NCBI GenBank assembly: GCA_030828165.1
Contig: JAURDA010000015.1
Coordinates: forward strand, 1 to 35,076
Source: Candidatus Poseidonia sp.
GTDB taxonomy: Archaea > Thermoplasmatota > Poseidoniia > Poseidoniales > Poseidoniaceae
Length of the DNA: 35,076 nucleotides
Direction of reading: 5' to 3'
Below, piece after piece: positions 19,261 through 35,076 of the stretch. A program made the position numbers and the translations under genes. The first letter of the stretch is position 1. Every line of letters starts with the position of its first letter. The notes below the pieces were generated by a model. That model was not told the DNA's origin and did no database searches. It saw only the letters and a program-made list of their open reading frames with translations.

Positions 19261-22200
19261 TTACTCTGAGATTTTGGTGAAGGATTTGTCCTCATTCAGC
19301 ACCCATCGCCCGCAGGTTTCACCGACGTAGAACGTTCCCTCTGCGGTGTATTCGTACGCACCACCCCCTGGGAGGTGGCTGTAGTCTTCGACTCGAACCT
19401 CTTCTTCGTTCGCTTCGGGTGCCGCCGTAGCCACACCGAGGGCGTCAATGTACTTGGCAGCCATCGATTGTGGGGATTCAGGTTCAGGAGTCGCTTTGGT
19501 TGGTGGTCCCCGTGGAGGTGATTTTGGCGGTCCTTTGGCGGGCGGGTTGGAAGGATTGCTTGCGATTTTCCCACCCGGTGGACCCCGGCGAGGTGAGCTC
19601 GTTTCAGGGACGGTGGTGGCAGGGGCAGGTTCGGATGCTTCAGCGCTCATCGCAGCCGCCAAGACCGCTTCGTCAACGTCTCCGTTGGTTCGGCGGCGAA
19701 GCAAGACGGCTGCGCCAAGCAGGGCCAATGCGCCGCCTCCACCCAAGACGGCCAGTGCACCGAAGCCCCCGCCCTCGGTGGTGAACGATGCGGTGTATAC
19801 GTTGTTGGTCTCGTCAATCTCCCATATCTGCTGCTCAAGGTCAACCGTGATCTCAAGGGTCCACTGGCCCTCAGGTGCGGTAAAGGAGCGGCGTACGGAT
19901 TTTGCCGTGTTTTCGTCCATGGAACTGAAGATCGAACGACCGACAAGGGTTCGTTCGTCACCTTGGACAAGCTCGATGCTTGCGTTGAACGGCGTGGTCA
20001 ATCCTTCTCCCTCGTTCACCACGAAGAACGAGAGCGAGACCTTCTCGCCAGCTTTGCTTCCTCCGGTGATCTTGACGTTTTCCAACCCCAAATCCGGTCC
20101 AATGTTGTTCAGCGATGCTTCCAGCCAAGGGTCAAGGTCAGAATTCCCCGTTTCAGAGGTCAACGACCAACCCGCATCGTCTCGACCTTCGGCCCAGCAG
20201 GCCAACGTCGCTTGAGGAGAGAGGGTGGACGGGTCTCCAAGTTGGCTGAAATCGTAGGTGAAACTGAACATGGTGTTGCCGTTGAAAACCGTGGTAGCGT
20301 TCCGTTCAAGCGGGATAGGCGTCCACTGAACCGCTAACGAGCGAATCTGGCAGGTCAGCGTGAGCGGGGAATTCCAGCCTTCCGCTTCGTCGATGTTCAC
20401 GCCGACCTGGACGGCGTCGAGGTGATACCTCGAGATGGTGTTGGAGAGGCTTGAGGGCAGAAGAGCGGGGGCGACGTGGTCAAGTTGGAACGTGGCGACC
20501 TCAAGGGAGGCAAGGACTTCGGTTTGCAACGGGTCCAACAAGGTCACCGTCAGGTCCTGAACCAACCCGGAATCCTCCGGCGTCGGAATGGAAGCGAGCA
20601 ACTCGCCGTCGACGATGGTCACAGGGAAGCCACCTCGCCAATCTTCTCCTTGAACGGTCCCGTCCCAGCGGAGACGAAGATCACCGGAGTACGGTGTACC
20701 GCTCGTCAGATGGTGGACGTTGGCTGACAAGTTCAAGCGGTCACCCGCCATCACCACGGCTCCTTCCTGAACGGTTTGTGTGACGACGCCGTCGTTGTCC
20801 ATCAGGCTGTTGAGGTCGATGCTCATGGATCGCTCGAGCACCCACGCCTCATTGAAATCGTACCGCTGCAAGCCGTCAAGGTCTCGAATGGAAAGGTCTA
20901 CCTCTCCATCAATCAGGCCAGCATCGGTCAAACTCCATTCAACCGTGGCCGTTACCTCGAGCGTCAACTGTTCGTCCTGCTCGCTGACCACGCATCCGTC
21001 GGGGAGAATCTGAAGGCGTTCATCGAGAACCGAACACGTGTTGTCAAGCACGGTGTAGGTGAAACCCAATCGCTCGTCGTTGCCCAATTCAAGCTTGATA
21101 TCGATCATGTCTTCAAGCCCGTTCGCATCGGTGACAACGATGGACCATGCCACTTCTTGGGACGGTTCAAACCTCATCAGCGTATCGGAAAGCAGGTTTT
21201 TGGTGGGGGTGAACGACACGAGTTCGCTCTTCGATGGGGTCCGGGATTCCCAGCGAGCATGACCGTTTTCCGGCAGGGCTTGAGGGACGGCGTATCCGGC
21301 GATATCATCGCCTTCCAAAAGGACACGGGCGCCGTCATGATCTTCGTTTACCGTGTCGTTCACGGAGAGGTTGACAAACCAAACGTTCCCGACGTTTTCG
21401 AGCAAATACGTCGCCGGGGTATATTCTGCCCGTTGTGCAACGCCATCCTTCACTTCACCAGCGGTACCGTCGTTGAGGCCCTCAAGCCACGTGTAAGCGA
21501 ACAGCGTCTCGCTGGTAAAACCCCCCAAGTCGTAGAATGCAAAGGAGACCTCCTGGTCGGCGGCCTCGTTGATGTAGGCGTCAAGGGGAGGCTCAACCGA
21601 TTGGAGAACAGGCGACCGTGCATTGACCACGAATTCGTGGGGTTGGGTGGTAAACACGAGTGACCAATCTTCGTTCGTCCGTGCCTCCATCCACAAGGCC
21701 ACGTCGCCCGAAAGGGTCTCAGGAACGTTGAGCAGGGCGTGGTGAGGTTGCCCAGAGTTAAGGCGGAACCATTGCGAACTTTCGTTGGCCCAAATTCGCT
21801 CGCCAACCACGTCCTCTTCGTAGGTTTCCATGTCAAGGTGGAGGCGAGCCTCGATGTTGCCTCCCAAAAGCCGAAGCCCGCTGTTGGTGAAGTAATGGTC
21901 AAGCGTAATGTTCAGCCCGGTGTTCCCCGGAATGACTTCGCCTTCCTCCAACGTGGCGTTGCCCTGACTCGATGCATCGGCGGTGATGTCGGTGACTTCC
22001 ACGGTGACGCTGCGGTCAACGGCGACCACGCCGGGATGAAGATACGTCGCATTTCGTTCGGCGTGGGTGGTGGTCTTCACGCGGAGGTGGCTGGATGGTA
22101 GATTCCCGCTGAGGGAGAAGCTCCAGTCCACCGTTTGGCCGTTCTCGGTTGCGGCGCCCAACGTTGCGGTGGGTTGGCCGAAGAGGAGTCCTTCTTGGTC

Positions 22201-23952
22201 GATCACCGAAAGGGTTGACATGGTCTCGTTCCAAATCAGTTGAGTCCACGATCCTCCAAAGGACATGCTGCCCACGGCATCGCTCGGGTGGAGTTGCAAG
22301 GTGTAGGTGCCGTTTTGGGTTGTGGAATGATGATGTGTCGTCAGCGTGATGGGCGTTGAGGTCGGCTGGAGGGTGCTGGGGACGCTCGTGACAAAGGCGG
22401 TGGAATCGGCGCCAATGTTCACGTTCACCAGCGTCGGGGTTTTCCACGTCATGATTTGGTTGGTGCTGTAGCGTGCTCGAAATTGAATGTAGGGTGCGTC
22501 TTCAAGCGTGTCGGTAAGCGAGGTGTTGCCTGCGGAGAGGTAGGTGTTCACGGGGACCGAGGTGGGCTCCCAAGCCGCCGAAGCCATCGCTTGCTGGGTT
22601 TGAGCCGTTCGGTATTGAACGCCGATGGATGAGCCTGAGGGTTCAACGGTGTTGAACTCAAACCAGAGCAAACTCGCTGCACCTTGGGTGTGGGTTCGCA
22701 TGTCTTGGATGGCCGATGTTAGCATGCCTACTTGTTCGGTGGGATTGATGTGATATTCGGTTTCGGCCAAGTATTGGATGCTCCACGTGCTGAACCGAGT
22801 GTAACTCGAATCGCCCGACGCATAAACGAGGGTGTTGTTGGCCCGAGCAAGCGTTGAATCGTAAATCCCGATTTGGAGCGTTGCTCGCGTAGCCCATCGG
22901 TTCGTGAACGGGTCGTAGCCGTAGGTTTTGTCACTGGCCGTTCCTGTCCAGCCCGTCACCTCATAGCCGCCGTGAATGACGATTTCGTCGTTGTACACTT
23001 CGGCTGCGTAGGCAGAAAGGGCATTCGTGGCGTTGGGGAGTTGCGACCAGGTGTCGGTCACCGGGTCATAGGCTTCGGTAAGGTTGGTGATTTGTTGGAC
23101 GGTGGTGTTGGCGACCGGATCGAAGAAGGTAGCCACACCACCGTACGCGATGAGTTTTCCACGGAAGGCGACCAAGGCAAACGAATGGCGCTTATTGTTC
23201 ATGCTCGCCACCTCCGCCCGCGCGTCGTTGACCGGGTCGTAACGCATCAAGCGGTCATTCATGTCAGAACGGTCCGAGGCGGTCACGCCTCCTGCAACGT
23301 AGACCAAGCCCCCCAGCGAGGCGACGCCAGCAAGACCGACGGCTTTGTTGGCCGGCATCGACGTGCCGTAACTCCAATTGCCTTGGTTGGGGTCGTAGAC
23401 TTGGACCAAACCGGTGGCTTGTTGTGCGGGTGAACTGAAGGGGTAATGGTCGCCGATGGCGTAGATTTTGTTGTTCACAACGGCGCATCCGTGGTATTGT
23501 TGCGTGGTTTTCATGTCTTCGAGAGCGGGCGACCAAGATTTGTTGGCCACATCAAAGATTTCGACCATTTTGGTCGGTGATTCGTCGCCCGTTTGAGTGG
23601 GGTTGGCGTCCATGCGTCCACCGATGAGGTAGACTTCATTGGTGTTGGGCAAGTAAGCCGAACACGCACCTGTTCGCAAGGTGCTCAGTCCCAAACCGGT
23701 CGTCGCCGTCCACGAAACATCGGGTCGGTTGAGCGTGGTGAGCCCCGTAGCGGTGTCGAGGCTGAGGTTGGTGAGCGTGAACCCTTGCCCGGAGGTGAAG
23801 TTTTGGTGGTTCATCACGGTCGGCAACGCTTCCGGGGGTTCGGAGAGCGGTGCAGTGTTCGGTGCAGGTTCATAGGCGGTTGACCAACTTCCGAGGAGGA
23901 AGAGACCAACGATGAAGGCCGAGGTCCACTGCCCGGACGGTCGGACTGCCAT
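19261..23952 (-). CDS. Giant Kelch-repeat surface protein with CARDB-like domain, membrane anchor and cytoplasmic tail
   Basis: A 1563-residue exported protein. A signal peptide (SAFIVGLFLLGSWSTAYE) is followed by about six Kelch-type blades at roughly residues 80-400, with repeats such as NEVYLIGGRMD, NNKIYAIGDHYP, GGLVYVAGGVT, RGKLIAYGGVA and NDEIVIHGGYE and partner strands like VYDPNQGNWSYG. A long run of beta-sandwich-like domains follows, then a CARDB-like domain (about 1290-1388; GSKAGEKVSLSFFVVNEGEG, IDETNNVYTASF). A membrane helix (1397-1418) with RRR stop-transfer leads to a Pro-rich linker and a small C-terminal module (YSHLPGGGAYEYTAEG, CGRWVLNEDKSF). Adhesion or glycan binding is likely; no enzyme motif was seen. 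Confidence 0.82.
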   Translation of the reverse strand: MAVRPSGQWTSAFIVGLFLLGSWSTAYEPAPNTAPLSEPPEALPTVMNHQNFTSGQGFTLTNLSLDTATGLTTLNRPDVSWTATTGLGLSTLRTGACSAYLPNTNEVYLIGGRMDANPTQTGDESPTKMVEIFDVANKSWSPALEDMKTTQQYHGCAVVNNKIYAIGDHYPFSSPAQQATGLVQVYDPNQGNWSYGTSMPANKAVGLAGVASLGGLVYVAGGVTASDRSDMNDRLMRYDPVNDARAEVASMNNKRHSFALVAFRGKLIAYGGVATFFDPVANTTVQQITNLTEAYDPVTDTWSQLPNATNALSAYAAEVYNDEIVIHGGYEVTGWTGTASDKTYGYDPFTNRWATRATLQIGIYDSTLARANNTLVYASGDSSYTRFSTWSIQYLAETEYHINPTEQVGMLTSAIQDMRTHTQGAASLLWFEFNTVEPSGSSIGVQYRTAQTQQAMASAAWEPTSVPVNTYLSAGNTSLTDTLEDAPYIQFRARYSTNQIMTWKTPTLVNVNIGADSTAFVTSVPSTLQPTSTPITLTTHHHSTTQNGTYTLQLHPSDAVGSMSFGGSWTQLIWNETMSTLSVIDQEGLLFGQPTATLGAATENGQTVDWSFSLSGNLPSSHLRVKTTTHAERNATYLHPGVVAVDRSVTVEVTDITADASSQGNATLEEGEVIPGNTGLNITLDHYFTNSGLRLLGGNIEARLHLDMETYEEDVVGERIWANESSQWFRLNSGQPHHALLNVPETLSGDVALWMEARTNEDWSLVFTTQPHEFVVNARSPVLQSVEPPLDAYINEAADQEVSFAFYDLGGFTSETLFAYTWLEGLNDGTAGEVKDGVAQRAEYTPATYLLENVGNVWFVNLSVNDTVNEDHDGARVLLEGDDIAGYAVPQALPENGHARWESRTPSKSELVSFTPTKNLLSDTLMRFEPSQEVAWSIVVTDANGLEDMIDIKLELGNDERLGFTYTVLDNTCSVLDERLQILPDGCVVSEQDEQLTLEVTATVEWSLTDAGLIDGEVDLSIRDLDGLQRYDFNEAWVLERSMSIDLNSLMDNDGVVTQTVQEGAVVMAGDRLNLSANVHHLTSGTPYSGDLRLRWDGTVQGEDWRGGFPVTIVDGELLASIPTPEDSGLVQDLTVTLLDPLQTEVLASLEVATFQLDHVAPALLPSSLSNTISRYHLDAVQVGVNIDEAEGWNSPLTLTCQIRSLAVQWTPIPLERNATTVFNGNTMFSFTYDFSQLGDPSTLSPQATLACWAEGRDDAGWSLTSETGNSDLDPWLEASLNNIGPDLGLENVKITGGSKAGEKVSLSFFVVNEGEGLTTPFNASIELVQGDERTLVGRSIFSSMDENTAKSVRRSFTAPEGQWTLEITVDLEQQIWEIDETNNVYTASFTTEGGGFGALAVLGGGGALALLGAAVLLRRRTNGDVDEAVLAAAMSAEASEPAPATTVPETSSPRRGPPGGKIASNPSNPPAKGPPKSPPRGPPTKATPEPESPQSMAAKYIDALGVATAAPEANEEEVRVEDYSHLPGGGAYEYTAEGTFYVGETCGRWVLNEDKSFTKISE

Positions 23953-26512: not shown

Positions 26513-28792
26513 ATGAACAACAAGTTCCTAACTCTAATTTTGGCCCTAAGCTTCGTTTCGGCAGCCCTCGCAGGCTGTACAAGCAACGAAGACGAAACTG
26601 ACGATGACACGACGACCACCGTTGAGACGGTCAAAATCGGGTTTTTGAACCCGTTGACCGGCCCACTGGCACAAGATGCTGCTGGGTTTACTTACGGTGC
26701 TACGGAAGCCATCACTGACTTGAACGCCATGCAAAGCGACATCGTGTTCGAACTCGTCGAAGCCGACTCCGGCTGCGACGGTACGGTCGGCGCTGCAGCA
26801 GCCCAAACCGTCCTCGACGCCAACGTCGTTGCCGTTGCAGGTGCTGCCTGTTCAGGCGCTTCCATGGCCGCCAACGCCGTTCTCTCGGCTGCTGGCGTGA
26901 ACATGATCTCCTACGCTTCCACCAACCCCGGGCTGAGTGACGCTACCGCTTACCCCAACTTCTTCCGTGTCGTTCCCAGCGACGCCATCCAAGGACCCGC
27001 CGCTGCTGCCATGATGGTCAGCGCTGGCGTTGAGGCTCCAGCCCTCCTCCACATGACCAACGATTACGGCTCCGGCTTCGCTGACGCCATCGAGGGTGCA
27101 TGGGAAGGCGACCTCTGTGCAAAGATTGGCTACGCTGAAACGGCAACCGACCTCTCCTCTGAGATCACTCAAATCGCCGACGCAGAGTGCGACGCTGTCT
27201 TCATGGTCTCGTACGTGACCGACGCTGCCCTCATCATCAACGAAGTCAGCACGCAAGACCTGGACATCATGATGTTCAGCGGTGACGGACCAGCAGGCGA
27301 GGGCTTGCTCGAAGAGTTGACCGATGACATGGCTGCTGACGGACTCGCCGTGACGGCTCCTGCTGCAGGAACCTCCTACGGTGACTTCGAAGCCCGCTAC
27401 GACGCCTCCAACGTCGGAAGCATCAAGCAATACGTCTTGACCTCCTACGACGCTGTGAGCATCATCGGTAAGGCCTACATCGCCGACTCCACCGACATGG
27501 ATTCCTCCATCCGCTCCGTGGGTACCAACTACGAGGGTGCAAGCGGCTTGCACTCCTTCCTCGCCAACGGTGACGTGGGCGGCGCAGGATACGACATCTG
27601 CTTCTACTCCGCTGGTGCTGCCGATGACGGTGAGTACGGTTGCCACGGCAGCTGGAACGTCGCTGACGGCGTTTCCTACGACTGGGGCGACGAAGGCACG
27701 AACGTCAAACTCGGCTTCATGAACCCGTTGACCGGACCACTCGCTCAGGACGCTGCTGGCTTCACCTACGGCGCCGAGCAGGGCATTGCCGACCTCAACG
27801 CCATGGGCGGCTTCTGGGGCTACTCCTTTGAACTCGTTGAAGTGGACTCCGGTTGCGACGGTACCGTTGCCTCCTCCGCTGCTCAAACCCTCGTTGACTC
27901 GGGTGTTTGGGCCTCCGGTGGTGCTGCTTGTTCCGGTGCATCCATGGCCGCCAACTCCGTTCTCTCGGCTGCCGGCGTCCCCATGATCTCCTACGCTTCC
28001 ACCAACCCTGGCCTCAGCAACGCAAGTGCTTACCCTGACTTCTTCCGCATCGTCCCCAGCGACGCCATCCAAGGCCCCGCTGCCGCTGACATGATGGCTG
28101 CTATGGGCGTCACCAACCCCGCTGTGCTTCACATGACCAACGACTACGGCTCCGGATTCGCCGACGCCATCGAAGACGCATGGGAAGGCGACTTGTGCGC
28201 AAAGATTGGATATTCCGAAACCACCACGGATGTGAGTAGCCAAGTCTCTGAACTTGAATCGCTAGACTGCGATGCTGTCTTCATGGTGTCTTACGTGACC
28301 GACGGCGCCCTCATCCTCGAGGCCATCTCGGGATCGTCGCTCGATGTGATGCTGTTCAGCGGTGACGGACCTGCCGGTCTTGGTCTTCTCGAAGAACTCA
28401 GCGACGACGTCGCTGCAGACGGTCTTTACGTGACCTCGCCTCGTGCTGGAACCTCTTTCGGTGACTTTGAGGCCCGCTACGACGCATCCGGCGTTGGCAG
28501 CATCAAGGCCTACGTCCTGACCTCCTACGACTCGATCATGATGCTCGGCCAAGCTGCTGTCATTTGCACGATGATGGCGGACGAAGGCATGAACGAGTTG
28601 ACGCCTTCCGAGTGCATCGGCTTTGTTGGTGACGAGTACGAAGGCGCAAGCGGTCTCCACACCTTCTTGGAAAACGGTGACGTTGGCGGCGCAGGTTACG
28701 ACATCTGCGGTTACACGGCCACCACGACCGACGACGGCGTGTACGAGTGCACCAAGTACTGGACCGTTGAAGACGGCGTCCAGGACGCTTGA
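26513..28792 (+). CDS. Lipoprotein with two tandem Liv/HAAT-type substrate-binding domains
   Basis: A 759-residue exported binding protein. The signal peptide ends in LAGC with lipidated C22, then an acidic Thr-rich linker. Two LivK/ANF-receptor type domains follow, residues 41-397 and 399-759, about 70 % identical by eye. Identical blocks include NPLTGPLAQDAAGFTYGA, DSGCDGTV, ACSGASMAAN, MISYASTNPGLS, PSDAIQGPAAA and HMTNDYGSGFADAIE. Each domain has three conserved cysteine pairs (C88/C113, C202/C226, C363/C377 and equivalents), and the second has an extra pair (C685, C701). It probably captures amino acids or related amides for the downstream permease. Codons mostly end in C, suggesting high expression. 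Confidence 0.9.
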   Translation: MNNKFLTLILALSFVSAALAGCTSNEDETDDDTTTTVETVKIGFLNPLTGPLAQDAAGFTYGATEAITDLNAMQSDIVFELVEADSGCDGTVGAAAAQTVLDANVVAVAGAACSGASMAANAVLSAAGVNMISYASTNPGLSDATAYPNFFRVVPSDAIQGPAAAAMMVSAGVEAPALLHMTNDYGSGFADAIEGAWEGDLCAKIGYAETATDLSSEITQIADAECDAVFMVSYVTDAALIINEVSTQDLDIMMFSGDGPAGEGLLEELTDDMAADGLAVTAPAAGTSYGDFEARYDASNVGSIKQYVLTSYDAVSIIGKAYIADSTDMDSSIRSVGTNYEGASGLHSFLANGDVGGAGYDICFYSAGAADDGEYGCHGSWNVADGVSYDWGDEGTNVKLGFMNPLTGPLAQDAAGFTYGAEQGIADLNAMGGFWGYSFELVEVDSGCDGTVASSAAQTLVDSGVWASGGAACSGASMAANSVLSAAGVPMISYASTNPGLSNASAYPDFFRIVPSDAIQGPAAADMMAAMGVTNPAVLHMTNDYGSGFADAIEDAWEGDLCAKIGYSETTTDVSSQVSELESLDCDAVFMVSYVTDGALILEAISGSSLDVMLFSGDGPAGLGLLEELSDDVAADGLYVTSPRAGTSFGDFEARYDASGVGSIKAYVLTSYDSIMMLGQAAVICTMMADEGMNELTPSECIGFVGDEYEGASGLHTFLENGDVGGAGYDICGYTATTTDDGVYECTKYWTVEDGVQDA
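26633..28789 (+). repeat. Internal direct repeat encoding the two binding domains
   Basis: Units of about 1.07 kb start at 26633 and 27707. They are similar at both the DNA and protein level, indicating an in-frame gene duplication and fusion that has since diverged. Confidence 0.85.
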
Positions 28793-28860: not shown

Positions 28861-31800
28861 GTGAGCAAGGTACGTGAGTCCATGGAAAGCTTTCGAGAAC
28901 GGTTGGGGGAACTCTCCCGTCTGCAACGTAGGTTGCTGGTTGCAGCCATCGTTGCGCTCGACGCCATCCTTGGTTTGCTCTACCAGTCCGGTATCAGCAA
29001 CGGCATCGACGCCGTGTTGGGGGGAAACATTCCCAACGACATGGTGTGGTTGTCGCAATCCCTCCAACTCATCTCCATGGGGTTTTTGCTGGTCAAGGTC
29101 GTTTTCGACGATCTCGCTTCCGGATGGCTTCGCTCAGGACTGATGGTGCTCTCGCCCCTCTTTTTGCTGCTTGTGGTGCTCTTTACCATCGAGTTGCTGA
29201 TGAAGGGGCTTGAGACACAGGCGACGATTTACTTCAACCTGTCATCCATCGGTTTCAGCACCTTAACCTGGTCTTCGACGTACTTGGCCATCGCCGTTGG
29301 CTGTACGCTCACGTACAGCGTTCAGCGCTACGGAAACTTCGCTCAAAGCGAGTTTTTCATGCTTGGCATGTACGTGGCCGTGATGTTGACGTGGATGGAT
29401 TTCTTCTATCCCCTCCACGCAACCCCCAAAGACGGGGTCCTGGTTTGGTCGCTCTTGGTTTGGACGTTGATTGGCGCTTTTGTCCTCACGGGCATTGCAG
29501 GGGTCATCATCGACCGTTTGGTGTTCCGAGGTTTCCGCGATCGCAAGTCCAACACGGACGTGATGATGATCGCCTCGTTGGGCGTTGCGCTCGTTCTCCG
29601 AGCCATTGTTTATCTTCGGTTTGGCGCAGGGACCAAGTTGTTTGAACCCGACATTGATTGGAGAATTGCTCGTGAACAGCGCTTTGAAGCCTCCACCGTA
29701 CTCACCAAACTCAATCTTGGTGACCGTTCGTTGGAAAGCGGTGAAGTGTATCGTTATGGGGCCTGTGAACAAGTGGGGACCGACCCCGATACTGGAGCTC
29801 CGCTCTACGAGAAAATCACGACCGAAGGGTCAGCACCGCTCGCCGATGTGTACAACGTCGGTGGTGACTGCGTAACGGAACTCACGGCCAATTACACCTA
29901 CTACAGCGCAGCCATGCCGTTTGTCATCTTTGCATCGGTGGGGTTGCTTCTCTTGTTGCTGACCAAGACCCGTCTCGGACGTCGCATGCGTGCGGTTGCC
30001 GACAACCCCGAACTTGCAGCTTCCTGCGGTATTAACGTGGAACGGGTGCACATGACGAGCGCCTTCCTCTCGGCAGGGATTTCTGGCATTGGTGGTGCTA
30101 TTTTCGCCATGACCATTCGCTACAGTCCCGAAACGGGGTTCACCCTGCTGTTGCCCGCCTTTGCCGTGATTGTTCTGGGAACCATCGGCTCCATTCCGGG
30201 CGCCGTTGTTGGTGCCCTGATCATCGGCTTTGTTCGGTCGGTTTCTTCGCCGATTTTGATGGGAATCGGGACGCCTCTTGAGCGCTCGAATTATGCCAAC
30301 CTCGCCGAAGTGATGCCATATGTACTCATCATTGCGATTTTGCTCATCATGCCGAAGGGCATCGGAGATGCATACGACCAGTGGAAAATCAAGAGGATTC
30401 GCCAACGGGCAGAGGATGATTTCACCCCGAATCCAAAACGTACTGCGCTCATCGGTATTTTCGCCGCTCCCTCAGGGCTTCACCACTTTAGCATGCGAAA
30501 CTCCATCCGTGGACAACGGTATCTGTTGACCACGGCGATGGCCTACATCGTGTATCGCTTTAGCGGCTTTGTTCGGGAACATTCGATTGCCGAGGATGGA
30601 ATTTTTGCCATGTTGACGGGCGGTGACGACGCCATTCGTCTCGCCCATGCACCACAATCGCTCTCGGTAGCCGAACAGGAGCAGTGGCTCTGGCTCATGC
30701 ACGGTGAAGAATTGCTCATCGCTTTCCTGGCCAACATTGGCTTCCTGCTGTGGCCAGCCGTACCGCTTGTCCTGTACCTCATCGCTTGGAGGGAGGCCTC
30801 GTACACTCTGCGTGACCGGGAGCACAAGCCCGATGAACGTCTTCCCAATCTCCTGAATGCGTTCTCGGCCAAACGCCATCAATGGGGAACGACGCTTGGC
30901 ACGAAGTGGAAAACTTTGCTTGAATTCGTTGATGAAAAAACGATGGTCATCAGTCATTTTGCGGGCAAAAAGCAGGCTGCAGCTACCGCCTACATCAGAG
31001 AAAAAGTCGATTTCAACCATCAAGACCTCTTGGCGAAATACAAGATGGGTTACGGGAGAGAAAGCGAACGCGGTTCTTGGGTTTTGTTTGCGCTCTTGGC
31101 CGTCGTCATGGCTCTTTTCATCAGTTGGTTGCCGGTGGCGGACTCTGACCAGGCTTCCTTCGTCAAGGCGCTCCAAGTTTCGAACGTCCTGGTCACGTTG
31201 GCGATCTTCGCCATTCTGGCCATGTCGCTGAACCTCCACACGGGCATCACCGGTCAGTTGAACTTCGGTGTGATTTTCTTCGCCTCCATTGGGGCAATTA
31301 CCGTTGGACTCCTTACCGCCCCCAAAGACCTGCACGGCTACGGTTGGCCGACCATCCCCGCCGTGCTCTTCTCGATGTGTTTGGGTGCGCTTGCTGGATG
31401 GTTTTTGGCCTATCCAACCGCAAGGCTGCGAAGTGATTATTTTGCCATCATCACCATTTCCCTTGGCGAAATCGTCCGTGTCCTGTTGAGCGGTGAACCT
31501 CTGCTTCGGGCGGGCTCATGGGGCAGCGCCGTGGGTATTTCCCGGTACACGCTTCCGTTGCAAGATTGGTGGTTCTGCGGGTCCGATGTACCTCTTGATA
31601 GCAACGGGGTTCCGTTACCAGCGACGGTGTGCTCAAACACCGACGGCATCGACAGCATGGCCGTCACGGTTGGAGATTTGCTGAACCTCGGTCAACCGGC
31701 ACCCTACCTCATGGTCCTTGCGTTCATCGGCGTCCTTGCGACGCTCTTTACCTGGTGGTTGCTTAATATCGTCCTCTCCTCGCCATGGGGTCGAATCCTT

Positions 31801-32463
31801 CGGTCCATCCGTGAGGACGAAATGGTCGCCCAACATCACGGTCACGATATTCTACGGCACAAAGCCGCAAGTTTGGCCCTCGGCGCCGCCATAGCCGCCT
31901 TTGCTGGCGCTTTGTGGGCGTGGAAGCTCACCGGCTTCCAACCCAGTTTCATGTCGCCTTCCAAAACCACCTTCCTGGTGTGGGCAGCCTTCATCATCGG
32001 AGGTGCTGGAAACAACCGAGGTATGGTGATTGGTGCAAGCATCATCGTGCTCATGGAATTCGTTTTCAACGTCCTCGTCGCGGCTCAAGGCAGTTCCGAC
32101 CTTCCACTCAATGAAACCGCAGACATGATCGACGGATGGTTTGAGTGGTTCGTGACCGATACCGTCGAAGCGATGTGGATTTGTGTGGCCATCATGGCCG
32201 TTGCCTATCTGTTGAGATGGCGTCCAACACAAGAGACCTTCATGCACTTCTCAATTCTTCTCGCCCTCGCCGCCTTGTTCTTTGACGACCGTTCCATCGA
32301 TGAGGTGTTCCTCAACGGAAACATCCGTGCTGGTATGGCCTACGTGAAGGTTCTGCTCGTTGGTTTGTTGCTGATTTTCTCCTTGAGATTCAACCCGAAG
32401 GGTCTGCTTCCAGAAGTGCCCTATCGACCAAACCATCCATTGAAGGGGGCTGAGGAACAATGA
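28861..32463 (+). CDS. Fused LivH-LivM branched-chain-amino-acid-type ABC permease
   Basis: A 1200-residue protein (GTG start with GGAG upstream) combining both permeases of a Liv/HAAT importer. The LivH half spans about 135-505, with the coupling-loop region GRRMRAVADNPELAASCGINVERV (in two parts) near 373-396. The LivM half spans about 738-1185, with ILAMSLNLHTGITGQLNFG and coupling loop GRILRSIREDEMVAQHHGHD. Between them, about 505-738, is a non-permease linker with two probable membrane helices (near 553-570 and 618-642) and charged segments. N-terminal helices precede LivH at about 25-115. Extracytoplasmic inserts carry cysteine pairs C302/C337 and C906/C924. The ATPase gene overlaps its stop by 4 bp. 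Confidence 0.9.
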   Translation: MSKVRESMESFRERLGELSRLQRRLLVAAIVALDAILGLLYQSGISNGIDAVLGGNIPNDMVWLSQSLQLISMGFLLVKVVFDDLASGWLRSGLMVLSPLFLLLVVLFTIELLMKGLETQATIYFNLSSIGFSTLTWSSTYLAIAVGCTLTYSVQRYGNFAQSEFFMLGMYVAVMLTWMDFFYPLHATPKDGVLVWSLLVWTLIGAFVLTGIAGVIIDRLVFRGFRDRKSNTDVMMIASLGVALVLRAIVYLRFGAGTKLFEPDIDWRIAREQRFEASTVLTKLNLGDRSLESGEVYRYGACEQVGTDPDTGAPLYEKITTEGSAPLADVYNVGGDCVTELTANYTYYSAAMPFVIFASVGLLLLLLTKTRLGRRMRAVADNPELAASCGINVERVHMTSAFLSAGISGIGGAIFAMTIRYSPETGFTLLLPAFAVIVLGTIGSIPGAVVGALIIGFVRSVSSPILMGIGTPLERSNYANLAEVMPYVLIIAILLIMPKGIGDAYDQWKIKRIRQRAEDDFTPNPKRTALIGIFAAPSGLHHFSMRNSIRGQRYLLTTAMAYIVYRFSGFVREHSIAEDGIFAMLTGGDDAIRLAHAPQSLSVAEQEQWLWLMHGEELLIAFLANIGFLLWPAVPLVLYLIAWREASYTLRDREHKPDERLPNLLNAFSAKRHQWGTTLGTKWKTLLEFVDEKTMVISHFAGKKQAAATAYIREKVDFNHQDLLAKYKMGYGRESERGSWVLFALLAVVMALFISWLPVADSDQASFVKALQVSNVLVTLAIFAILAMSLNLHTGITGQLNFGVIFFASIGAITVGLLTAPKDLHGYGWPTIPAVLFSMCLGALAGWFLAYPTARLRSDYFAIITISLGEIVRVLLSGEPLLRAGSWGSAVGISRYTLPLQDWWFCGSDVPLDSNGVPLPATVCSNTDGIDSMAVTVGDLLNLGQPAPYLMVLAFIGVLATLFTWWLLNIVLSSPWGRILRSIREDEMVAQHHGHDILRHKAASLALGAAIAAFAGALWAWKLTGFQPSFMSPSKTTFLVWAAFIIGGAGNNRGMVIGASIIVLMEFVFNVLVAAQGSSDLPLNETADMIDGWFEWFVTDTVEAMWICVAIMAVAYLLRWRPTQETFMHFSILLALAALFFDDRSIDEVFLNGNIRAGMAYVKVLLVGLLLIFSLRFNPKGLLPEVPYRPNHPLKGAEEQ

Positions 32464-33245
32464 AACCCTTGCTATCGGTGAAGAATCTGCGGAAGGAATT
32501 CGGTGGTTTGGTTGCGGTGAAGGACGTCTCCTTTGAGGTAGGTGAAGGAGAATTTGTCGGTTTAATCGGTCCCAACGGTTGCGGAAAATCCACGACGTTC
32601 AATTGCATCAGCGGTCTTTTGGAAAAAACATCGGGAAGCGTTGAGGTATTTGGCGTGGACGTCTCCGACAAACGTCCTGACGAAATTCAGAAACTTGGCA
32701 TGACGAGGACGTTCCAGCACACGAGGCTTTGGAAAGACATGACGGTGATTGAAAATCTCCTCGTCCCTCCCAGAAAGCAATTCTCTCCCAATCCTTTCCT
32801 TGCTTTGTTCCGGGGTCGCTCACGAGCGGAAGAGAAAGAGCGGCTTTCCAAAGCCTTCGCCGTCTTGGACCAACTTGAAGTCCCGCATATGGCTCACAAC
32901 ATGGCGGGTGAACTGTCTGGGGGTCAGAGCAAGTTGGTGGATATCGGGCGCTCCATGATGGGCGATCCACAACTGCTCCTGCTCGATGAGCCCGTAGCCG
33001 GAGTCGCAGGTCCGTTGGCGATGAAGATTTTCAACAACTTGCGAAATCTGGTTGATACGACCGGCATCTCGGTGCTGGTGATCGAGCACAACATGGACTT
33101 CATTCTTCGCCAAGGCGTTGATCGAATTGTCGTGATGAACGAAGGCAATGTACTGATGGTCGGTACACCTGATGAGGTCCGCTCCAATCGAGCGGTCATC
33201 GAGGCCTACTTGGGCGCCGCGGGCGATGGGGGTGAGGAGGAATGA
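32460..33245 (+). CDS. livG: Liv-type ABC transporter ATP-binding protein LivG
   Basis: A 261-residue ATPase driving the importer. Walker A GPNGCGKST is at 37-45, the ABC signature is LSGGQSKLVDIGRS, Walker B is LLLLDEP, and the switch histidine is in VLVIEHNMDFIL. The extra helical segment before the signature and the RTFQHTRLWKDMTVIENLL Q-loop region are LivG-like. The D-loop is slightly unusual (VAGVAGPL instead of the common AGLNP). Its ATG overlaps the permease stop and its stop overlaps the LivF start, so the three are translationally coupled. Confidence 0.92.
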   Translation: MKPLLSVKNLRKEFGGLVAVKDVSFEVGEGEFVGLIGPNGCGKSTTFNCISGLLEKTSGSVEVFGVDVSDKRPDEIQKLGMTRTFQHTRLWKDMTVIENLLVPPRKQFSPNPFLALFRGRSRAEEKERLSKAFAVLDQLEVPHMAHNMAGELSGGQSKLVDIGRSMMGDPQLLLLDEPVAGVAGPLAMKIFNNLRNLVDTTGISVLVIEHNMDFILRQGVDRIVVMNEGNVLMVGTPDEVRSNRAVIEAYLGAAGDGGEEE

Positions 33246-33964
33246 CCCGACTGCTCGATGTGAAGGGGCTCAGCGGAGGATACGGTAGCGTCCAAATCCT
33301 CTATGACATTGACCTGTACGTGGACGAGGGCGAATTTGTCACCATCATCGGTCCGAACGGGTGTGGGAAATCAACGTTCATCAAGACGCTTTTTGGTATT
33401 GCAACCCTTTACGGTGGTGAAGCCACGTATCGTGGAGAACGGATTGAAAAAATGCGAACGGACCAATTGGTTCGCAAAGGCATCGCCTATGTCCCTCAGG
33501 TTAACAACGTCTTCCCGACACTTTCTGTGGAGGAAAATCTGCAGATGGGCGGAAACTCCCTGCCCAGCAACGTGCTCAAGGAACGGATTGAACGGGCCTT
33601 GAGGATGTTCCCCGACCTCAGGTCCCGAGAACACGACTTGGCGGCCTCTCTTTCGGGCGGCGAACGGCAGATGTTGGCCATCTCGCGTGCGCTTATATCC
33701 GATCCCTCCTTCTTGCTCTTGGACGAGCCCACGGCAGCGCTCTCCCCGTTGTATCAACAACAGATCATCGAGCGAATTGACAACTTGCGAAAAGAGGGGA
33801 TCACCGTTCTCATCGTTGAACAGAACGCCCGCTTGAGCCTCGCCCGCTCCGACCGCGGCTACATTTTCGCCAACGGGAAAGTCGTTCACACGGGCGACGC
33901 AGATTTCATCCTCAACGACCCCGAAATCGGCGAATATTTCCTCGGCAACCACGACGACCATTGA
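33242..33964 (+). CDS. livF: Liv-type ABC transporter ATP-binding protein LivF
   Basis: A 240-residue ATPase, partner of LivG. Walker A GPNGCGKST is at 37-45, the Q-loop is in YVPQVNNVFPTLSVEENL, the signature is LSGGERQMLAISRAL and Walker B is FLLLDEPTAALSP. The H-loop position is Gln in LIVEQNARLSL, the normal LivF condition, as I recall. Its ATG overlaps the livG stop by 4 bp. It ends the importer operon; the H-NOX gene starts 66 bp later with its own TATA box. Confidence 0.92.
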   Translation: MTRLLDVKGLSGGYGSVQILYDIDLYVDEGEFVTIIGPNGCGKSTFIKTLFGIATLYGGEATYRGERIEKMRTDQLVRKGIAYVPQVNNVFPTLSVEENLQMGGNSLPSNVLKERIERALRMFPDLRSREHDLAASLSGGERQMLAISRALISDPSFLLLDEPTAALSPLYQQQIIERIDNLRKEGITVLIVEQNARLSLARSDRGYIFANGKVVHTGDADFILNDPEIGEYFLGNHDDH

Positions 33965-34030: not shown

Positions 34031-34576
34031 ATGAAGGGCATTGTGTTTAGGGAATTCATTGACATGGTTGAAGCATCGTTTGGCGACGAGATGGTGGACA
34101 CCATCATTTCATCGTGCGACCTTGAGAGCGGAGGCGCCTACTCGGCCGTCGGTACCTACGACCACACGGAACTGGTGCAGATGGTTGTGGCTTTGTCCGG
34201 CCAAACCGGTGTTGAAGTCCCTACGTTGGTGGAAGCCTTTGGAACCTACCTCTTTGGGCGATTCCTTGAACTGTTCCCGGTGTTCTTCAACCACTCGACG
34301 TCGTTTGAATTCCTTGATTCCATCCACGATGTGGTGCACGTCGAGGTGCTCAAACTCTACCCGGACGCTGGCTTGCCCTCGTTCAACAGCTCCATTTCGG
34401 CAGACAAGAAAACCTTGCACTTTGAATACCATTCCTCGCGGCACTTCGCTGATTTGGCGGTCGGTTTGATGAAGGGGGCGTTTGCGCACTGGAAGGAAGA
34501 TGTTGACATCGCCATCGAAGATCGAACCTCGGGCGAAGTGCAAGTGGTGATGTTTACTTGCACTTTGAACGAGTGA
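34031..34576 (+). CDS. H-NOX (HNOB) heme-nitric-oxide-binding sensor protein
   Basis: A 181-residue stand-alone H-NOX domain of normal length. The N-terminus MKGIVFREFIDMV matches the family. The proximal heme ligand is H99 in FLDSIHDVVH, followed by the conserved proline in LYPDAGLPSF and the heme-propionate motif YxSxR at Y133, S135, R137. Compared with the Thermoanaerobacter O2-binding H-NOX as I recall it, the distal Tyr140 position is L142 and Trp9 is Phe9, giving a nonpolar pocket. That favours NO (and CO) over O2. It is soluble and should signal through a partner; the next gene, 11 bp downstream, is the obvious candidate. Confidence 0.88.
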   Translation: MKGIVFREFIDMVEASFGDEMVDTIISSCDLESGGAYSAVGTYDHTELVQMVVALSGQTGVEVPTLVEAFGTYLFGRFLELFPVFFNHSTSFEFLDSIHDVVHVEVLKLYPDAGLPSFNSSISADKKTLHFEYHSSRHFADLAVGLMKGAFAHWKEDVDIAIEDRTSGEVQVVMFTCTLNE

Positions 34577-34587
34577 TGGTGGCCTGA

Positions 34588-35076
34588 GTGGACATTTTTG
34601 AACTCGCAAAGCAGGCCAAAAAGAACAAAGGCGCTGCAGATGGTGATCCAACGGCCGTGATCGCTCGGCTTGAGCGGAAACTCGAGCGGGAGAAAAAAGC
34701 CCGCCTCACGGCTGAACAGACCATTGAAGAGAGTTCACGACGCCTGTACCTAGCCAACCAAGCGCTCGATGACTCCAACAACCAACTCGAATCGACCGTT
34801 CTTGAATTGAACGATACGATGTCAAAATTGACGTCTGCAGAAGTCAAACGTCAAGCGACCACGGCGACGTTAGTCGTGGCGTTGGTGCTCTTCATCATCA
34901 GCGAGTTTGCTATCGAACCCGAACTGGAGAAGTCCATCGAAAACACCTTGGTTCTTCAAATTTCAAAAATCGGCATCTGTTCCTTATTGATTCCGTTCGA
35001 AATCATCGCTTCTCGTGTCATCGAGAGTGGCTTGACCGAATCCGGTGAAATCAACCGGATGATGTACCGGAAACTT
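34588..35076 (+). CDS. Coiled-coil membrane protein, probable H-NOX signalling partner (3' end outside window)
   Basis: An open frame from a GTG at 34588 (MDIFELAKQAKKNKG) runs 163 codons to the window edge with no stop. Residues about 20-85 are a continuous coiled coil (RLERKLEREKKARLTAEQ, then SSRRLYLANQALDDSNNQLE), resembling coiled coils found before PAS, kinase or cyclase domains in H-NOX-linked sensors. Two hydrophobic helices follow (TLVVALVLFIISEFAI and IGICSLLIPFEIIASRVI) and then a charged stretch to the edge. It starts 11 bp after the H-NOX stop. The missing C-terminus would show whether it is a histidine kinase, cyclase or something else. Confidence 0.7.
   Translation, partial: MDIFELAKQAKKNKGAADGDPTAVIARLERKLEREKKARLTAEQTIEESSRRLYLANQALDDSNNQLESTVLELNDTMSKLTSAEVKRQATTATLVVALVLFIISEFAIEPELEKSIENTLVLQISKIGICSLLIPFEIIASRVIESGLTESGEINRMMYRKL

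Follow-up and report, generated by a model that had tools for sequence, protein, structure and literature searches.

The locus studied here lies within a 35,076-nucleotide stretch of DNA from Candidatus Poseidonia sp. (the window) and raises the question of whether the two permeases of a putative branched-chain amino acid-type ABC importer are genuinely encoded as one protein and, if so, what the linker that joins them does. A frame of 1200 codons without a stop contains a LivH-like and a LivM-like permease, and the gene order in the window is binding-protein gene, fused permease, livG and livF (table 1). The Pfam family BPD_transp_2 matched two stretches of the protein (E 9.3e-73, the best being residues 773–1074) with a whole-protein score of 245.1 against a cut-off of 26.8, bearing out the claim of an earlier note, made from the sequence alone, that both permeases share one frame. 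The NCBIfam matches did not reach their curated cut-offs: UrtB, a urea transporter (residues 354–501, 133.1 against 250.3 bits), LivH (334–501, 92.4 against 379 bits) and LivM (767–1066, 106.8 against 366 bits). A sequence search of the PDB gave no permease match, and the permease boundaries used here are our own choice, based on the alignment. Each half holds a highly conserved region that we take, from knowledge of the family, to be its coupling region, in agreement with the coupling-loop motif noted previously in each half. The extra helices described ahead of LivH were also recovered: three are predicted in the N-terminal extension, whose profile matched all fused proteins among the loci compared in which the N-terminus is intact and gave nothing below E 0.8 against 845 open reading frames (ORFs) from 12 loci outside the class. 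A further predicted hairpin near the LivM end is gapped in three relatives (L041, L057, and L058).

Table 1. Features of the fused permease locus (window coordinates) and related binding-protein genes
Feature	Position	Strand	Description
Binding protein	26513..28792	+	Two tandem Peripla_BP_6 domains; lipobox-like N-terminus
Fused permease LivH-linker-LivM	28861..32463	+	1200 aa; GTG start, ATG at 28882 as alternative
N-terminal extension	28882..29232	+	Residues 8-124; three predicted helices, before LivH
LivH-like permease	29233..30372	+	Residues 125-504; Pfam, NCBIfam, alignment
LivH coupling region (presumed)	29965..30060	+	Residues 369-400; highly conserved in alignment
Linker	30373..31071	+	Residues 505-737
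TM2-like core	30439..30588	+	Residues 527-576; H1 with G-x-H-H-F turn, then H2
H2-H3 loop	30589..30705	+	Residues 577-615; predicted outside
H3	30706..30810	+	Residues 616-650; strongly hydrophobic, conserved W-P
Predicted cytoplasmic spacer	30811..31047	+	Residues 651-729; poorly conserved
LivM-like permease	31072..32430	+	Residues 738-1190; Pfam, NCBIfam, alignment
LivM coupling region (presumed)	31765..31863	+	Residues 969-1001; highly conserved in alignment
Extra predicted hairpin near LivM end	32149..32295	+	Residues 1097-1145; alignment, hydropathy
LivG ATPase	32460..33245	+	4-base overlap with permease gene; Pfam, NCBIfam
LivF ATPase	33242..33964	+	4-base overlap with livG; Pfam, NCBIfam
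Triple-domain binding-protein genes			L042, L046-L051, L053, L054, L056, L107-L111; upstream of fused permease

Relatives occur in 26 of the 59 near genomes, 7 of 30 genomes of the window's genus, at least 129 of 339 genomes of the class and 58 of 292 genomes of the phylum (46 within the class and 12 outside), the window's own genome being counted in each figure. The loci of 52 class genomes were inspected and yielded 53 loci with a match, a later batch having been picked mostly for short-looking frames. In 45 of these loci a single frame covers LivH and extends at least into the beginning of LivM, several of the frames ending at contig ends; six of the remainder have only the LivM side on the contig, one has only the N-terminus and one (L125) is interrupted. 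A stop and start between the two halves was sought in these related genomes, and the single frame runs through the junction in 45 out of 46 class loci whose contig spans it, the exception being L125, where the frame is broken in the linker within a stretch of ambiguous bases. The frame of L133, one of the 45, is broken inside LivM. These two broken frames might speak for an assembly or binning artefact that united two genes, but this explanation has practically no chance of being correct since the survey, with the same fusion in many independent genomes, refutes it. The LivH–LivM fusion is genuine and widespread in the group, confirming the initial observation.

Four loci (L101–L104) were inspected from among the 12 genomes of the phylum that fall outside the class, and LivH and LivM occupy separate frames in all of them. 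None of 44 viral candidate contigs encodes a relative. Of the 264 plasmid matches, the best 30 comprise 22 with two annotated permease genes, one with a livM/livH pair and seven that are unannotated, and none of the plasmid matches listed reached 80% query coverage. One of seven plasmid records searched (Sinorhizobium) contains a 659-aa frame that holds both permeases and is present twice; the fusion is not unique overall, a simpler LivH–LivM fusion occurring in this bacterium. The fusion described here was not found by a literature search in the titles and abstract openings of the matches listed, which mostly excluded subscription papers, and the accessible part of one article gives LivH and LivM separately (PMC2821768).

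The order of binding protein (SBP), permease, LivG and LivF was found in 33 of 43 class loci, and nine of the ten loci without the full order lie near contig ends, the tenth being L041. The genome of L041 (G058) carries two fused permeases, with frames of 1132 aa (L041) and 1273 aa (L042), and the 16-kb stretch surrounding the first of these permeases, that of L041, gave no match to a binding protein. LivG of the window carries a BCA_ABC_TP_C domain; the best NCBIfam models for the two ATPases were LivG (229.2 bits, cut-off 362) and LivF (204.6 bits, cut-off 441), both below the cut-off. The binding protein resembles PRK15404 (199.6 bits, cut-off 477), and the system is a putative branched-chain amino acid-type importer, the substrates of which would be amino acids, judging from the family of the binding protein. 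One, two or three binding domains are encoded upstream of the fused permeases. The 15 triple-domain genes combine two SBP families in one frame of approximately 1030–1240 aa, a family-3 SBP and two Peripla_BP_6 domains; the SBP_bac_3 domain was verified by Pfam in L046 and L047, the two tested. Single and double binding proteins occur with both of the linker types described below; all 15 triple forms accompany the TM2-like type. Three loci (L058, L105, and L106) have LivG frames of 431–457 residues with long C-terminal parts, alongside permeases of the other linker type. The available part of a previous study describes livK, in its own gene naming, as common in the Thalassarchaeaceae and not in the Ca. 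Poseidoniaceae, the probable family of the window genome (PMC9723583).

Downstream of livF the window contains a gene for an H-NOX (haem-NO-binding) protein (34031–34576), which is also found beside the operon in L033 and L034 and is present in 7 of 59 near genomes (own genome counted) versus 1 of 14 control genomes. It is followed by a frame that runs off the window (34588–35076) with weak matches to coiled-coil families. Elsewhere, the window encodes a protein of 1563 aa that has Kelch repeats together with a CARDB domain (19261–23952, reverse strand), and its eRF1 and DUF2240 genes are of archaeal type.

The fusion is conserved and the linker is divergent. Mean pairwise identity over 19 aligned rows is 67% in LivH and 65% in LivM, and within the linker 41% in H1, 34% in H2, 32% in the H2–H3 loop, 38% in H3, and 13% in the spacer, where 0 of 79 columns is invariant. 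Linker length ranges from 117 to 311 residues in 21 aligned proteins and reaches 344 over all 45. Five positions between residues 527 and 650 are invariant in all 19 rows (G539, H541, S575, W609, and P632), and the H2–H3 loop contains at least two cysteines in 11 of the 19, the window protein not among them. The TM2-like core is present in 39 of the 45 fused proteins; its profile was built from 19 of these and the other 20 match it independently. The linkers of the remaining six show no detectable similarity to this type, and the fusion therefore does not need TM2. A tree of the 45 fused proteins and two outgroups (quick method, SH-aLRT only) places all 39 on one side of a branch and needs a single change between the two linker types (support 96), with the caveats that the program warns of meeting long branches and that the basal fork is open. 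Both sides include members of the families f1, f2, and f3, and the tree suggests two old lineages of fused permease; because the root is not secure, gain and loss of the TM2-like linker are indistinguishable.

The window linker alone gave no Pfam match up to E 10 and did not match the ORFs of the 12 loci outside the class. An origin from an ordinary LivH or LivM end was considered and found unsupported, the best match of the whole-linker profile to the 845 ORFs of the 12 loci outside the class having an E of 0.6, so that the earlier statement that the linker matches neither half holds: no convincing relation was found among these ORFs. Against the same ORFs the core profile reached E 0.04 at best (a 126-aa ORF) and the H3 profile matched none up to E 1. 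Ten of the 19 linkers scanned matched the Pfam TM2 family (PF05154) at E values up to 10, the best being 0.00082; L057 and L058 were left out of the scan, and the window's linker was not among the ten. Whole-genome Pfam scans returned 34 TM2 matches below the cut-off (at E values up to 1), 19 of which sit in the linker, come from 18 of the 26 permease-holding genomes and all start 18–26 residues into the linker. The gathering cut-off of 27.9 was not reached (best linker 22.5 bits, window protein 12.7 bits). A TM2 profile built from 20 proteins of these genomes was compared with 114 sliding segments of the permease alignment and scored 28–32 in the six that cover the core and at most 15.5 in the rest, this maximum belonging to a segment that touches the start of the core; the comparison aligned 27 columns only, comprising H1 and the turn. 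Based on these results the first approximately 50 linker residues resemble TM2, and we do not call them a TM2 domain. Apolipoprotein A-IV (E 0.00056) and further helical proteins, the best PDB matches of the linker profile, cover mainly the spacer half and were set aside as helix composition.

Since the C-terminus of LivH and the N-terminus of LivM are both expected to be cytoplasmic, an even number of linker crossings is required. The earlier note had proposed two membrane helices and charged cytoplasmic segments. Three hydrophobic segments are present instead, two of which are predicted to span the membrane. A hydropathy scan (threshold 1.0) detected H3 in all 19 rows, H2 in 14 of them and H1 in 8, and in the window protein it calls one linker helix, H3. 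The charge pattern of the 19 proteins fits the proposal: lysine plus arginine amount to 26.5 per 100 residues before H1, 21.5 between H1 and H2, 2.2 between H2 and H3 (residues 574–615, with aspartate plus glutamate at 16.8) and 15.2 after H3, counted over 19 of 21 rows with L057 and L058, which are without the TM2-like linker, left out. Taken together, hydropathy and charge suggest that, of the two helices of a TM2-like element, H2 spans the membrane and H1 does not. The pattern fits an arrangement in which H2 would run outward and H3 inward, so that both permeases keep their expected orientation. AlphaFold2 predictions for the complete chain and for the linker (three sequences) gave low mean pLDDT values of 31.7 and 45.0, and the topology therefore rests on hydropathy and charge. 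Linkers vary further in an additional weak segment in the spacer (L052, L053, and L056) and a further pair of strongly hydrophobic segments (L044, 7441–8370; L047, 7655–8581), and the L057 linker has no convincing hydrophobic segment.

The best explanation, which we consider probable, is a topology-preserving tether that makes a LivH:LivM pseudo-heterodimer. One chain would form the whole transmembrane part of a HAAT/Liv-type importer, in which LivH and LivM adopt their usual folds and pair within the molecule, LivG and LivF engage the two coupling regions and a membrane-anchored binding protein delivers the substrate. The linker would pass from the TM2-like segment, with H1 not spanning, through H2 to the outside and, after the loop, back through H3 into a flexible cytoplasmic spacer, and its main job would be to tether the halves at 1:1 stoichiometry with correct topology. 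The fusion most probably sets the stoichiometry and pairing of the halves, with the linker meeting the demands of topology. In favor of this explanation are the single frame and its retention in the class, the gene order, the charge pattern, the further pair of hydrophobic segments in L044 and L047 beside an L057 linker with no convincing segment, the variable spacer next to conserved permeases and the different linkers of the smaller group. Against the tether stand the hydropathy results, H2 failing the threshold in 5 of 19 rows, the window protein passing with H3 only and L052, L053 and L056 showing the additional weak spacer segment. Furthermore, five invariant residues are more than a bare tether needs, and the conserved core leaves room for a possible further role.

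Such a role was put forward as a possibility in the earlier note, which suggested a regulatory or docking domain in place of a simple tether. On this explanation the TM2-like core and H3 form a membrane-sensing or partner-binding module that is only incidentally a tether. The proposal draws on the occurrence of the core in every protein of one side of the tree, across three families and including the 20 outside the profile set, on the five invariant positions, on the relation to TM2 and on the loop cysteines. However, the cytoplasmic part is unconstrained, six fused permeases manage with dissimilar linkers and no partner was found; to our knowledge no function of TM2 in prokaryotes has been established. 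The conserved core agrees with the proposal and the variable spacer and the dissimilar linkers do not, and we regard a regulatory or docking module as unlikely. The broader suggestion that a TM2-type module was recruited between importer permeases, where it would serve regulation or docking within a pseudo-dimeric translocator supplied by a binding protein of several domains, is equally doubtful; an importer of this architecture has here been observed so far in a single class of marine archaea. A third explanation, that the whole 1200-aa chain is translated and then cut in the linker to release an ordinary LivH and LivM, with the linker as leftover, would account for the fast-evolving spacer but is very improbable given the conserved core and the frame kept in nearly all spanning loci.

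The preferred explanation, a topology-preserving tether, can be set against known systems. The locus shares with the HAAT/Liv importer (LivHMGF with LivJ/K) the BPD_transp_2 permeases, a LivG with the BCA_ABC_TP_C tail, LivF, Peripla_BP_6 domains and the arrangement in one gene block, and differs in the fusion of the permeases through a membrane linker, the extra N-terminal helices, the binding proteins of one, two or three domains and the scores far under the LivH and LivM cut-offs. The fusion on plasmid pEMPC1 of Sinorhizobium sp. BG8 likewise combines the two permeases in a single frame ahead of LivG and LivF, but is about half as long and matches neither the linker nor the N-terminal profiles. 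FhuB offers an earlier example of an ABC importer with two permeases in one chain, although it belongs to another permease family (FecCD), and we know of no TM2-like insert in it. More than one tandem binding domain per importer is also described in the accessible part of a study on GlnPQ, where the domains are joined to the transmembrane domain, whereas here they reside on a separate protein (PMC8025302). With the TM2 domain the linker shares H1, a G-x-H/D-x-F turn and a second helix, and it differs in scoring below the Pfam cut-off, in aligning over so few columns and in an H1 that is predicted not to span the membrane. The TM2 loop of TM2D proteins is intracellular according to the available part of a previous study (PMC8714088), as is predicted for the present linker. 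The locus offers a clear and testable case of how the permease halves of an ABC importer can be joined without loss of their topology, and it places a TM2-like element in a defined machine.
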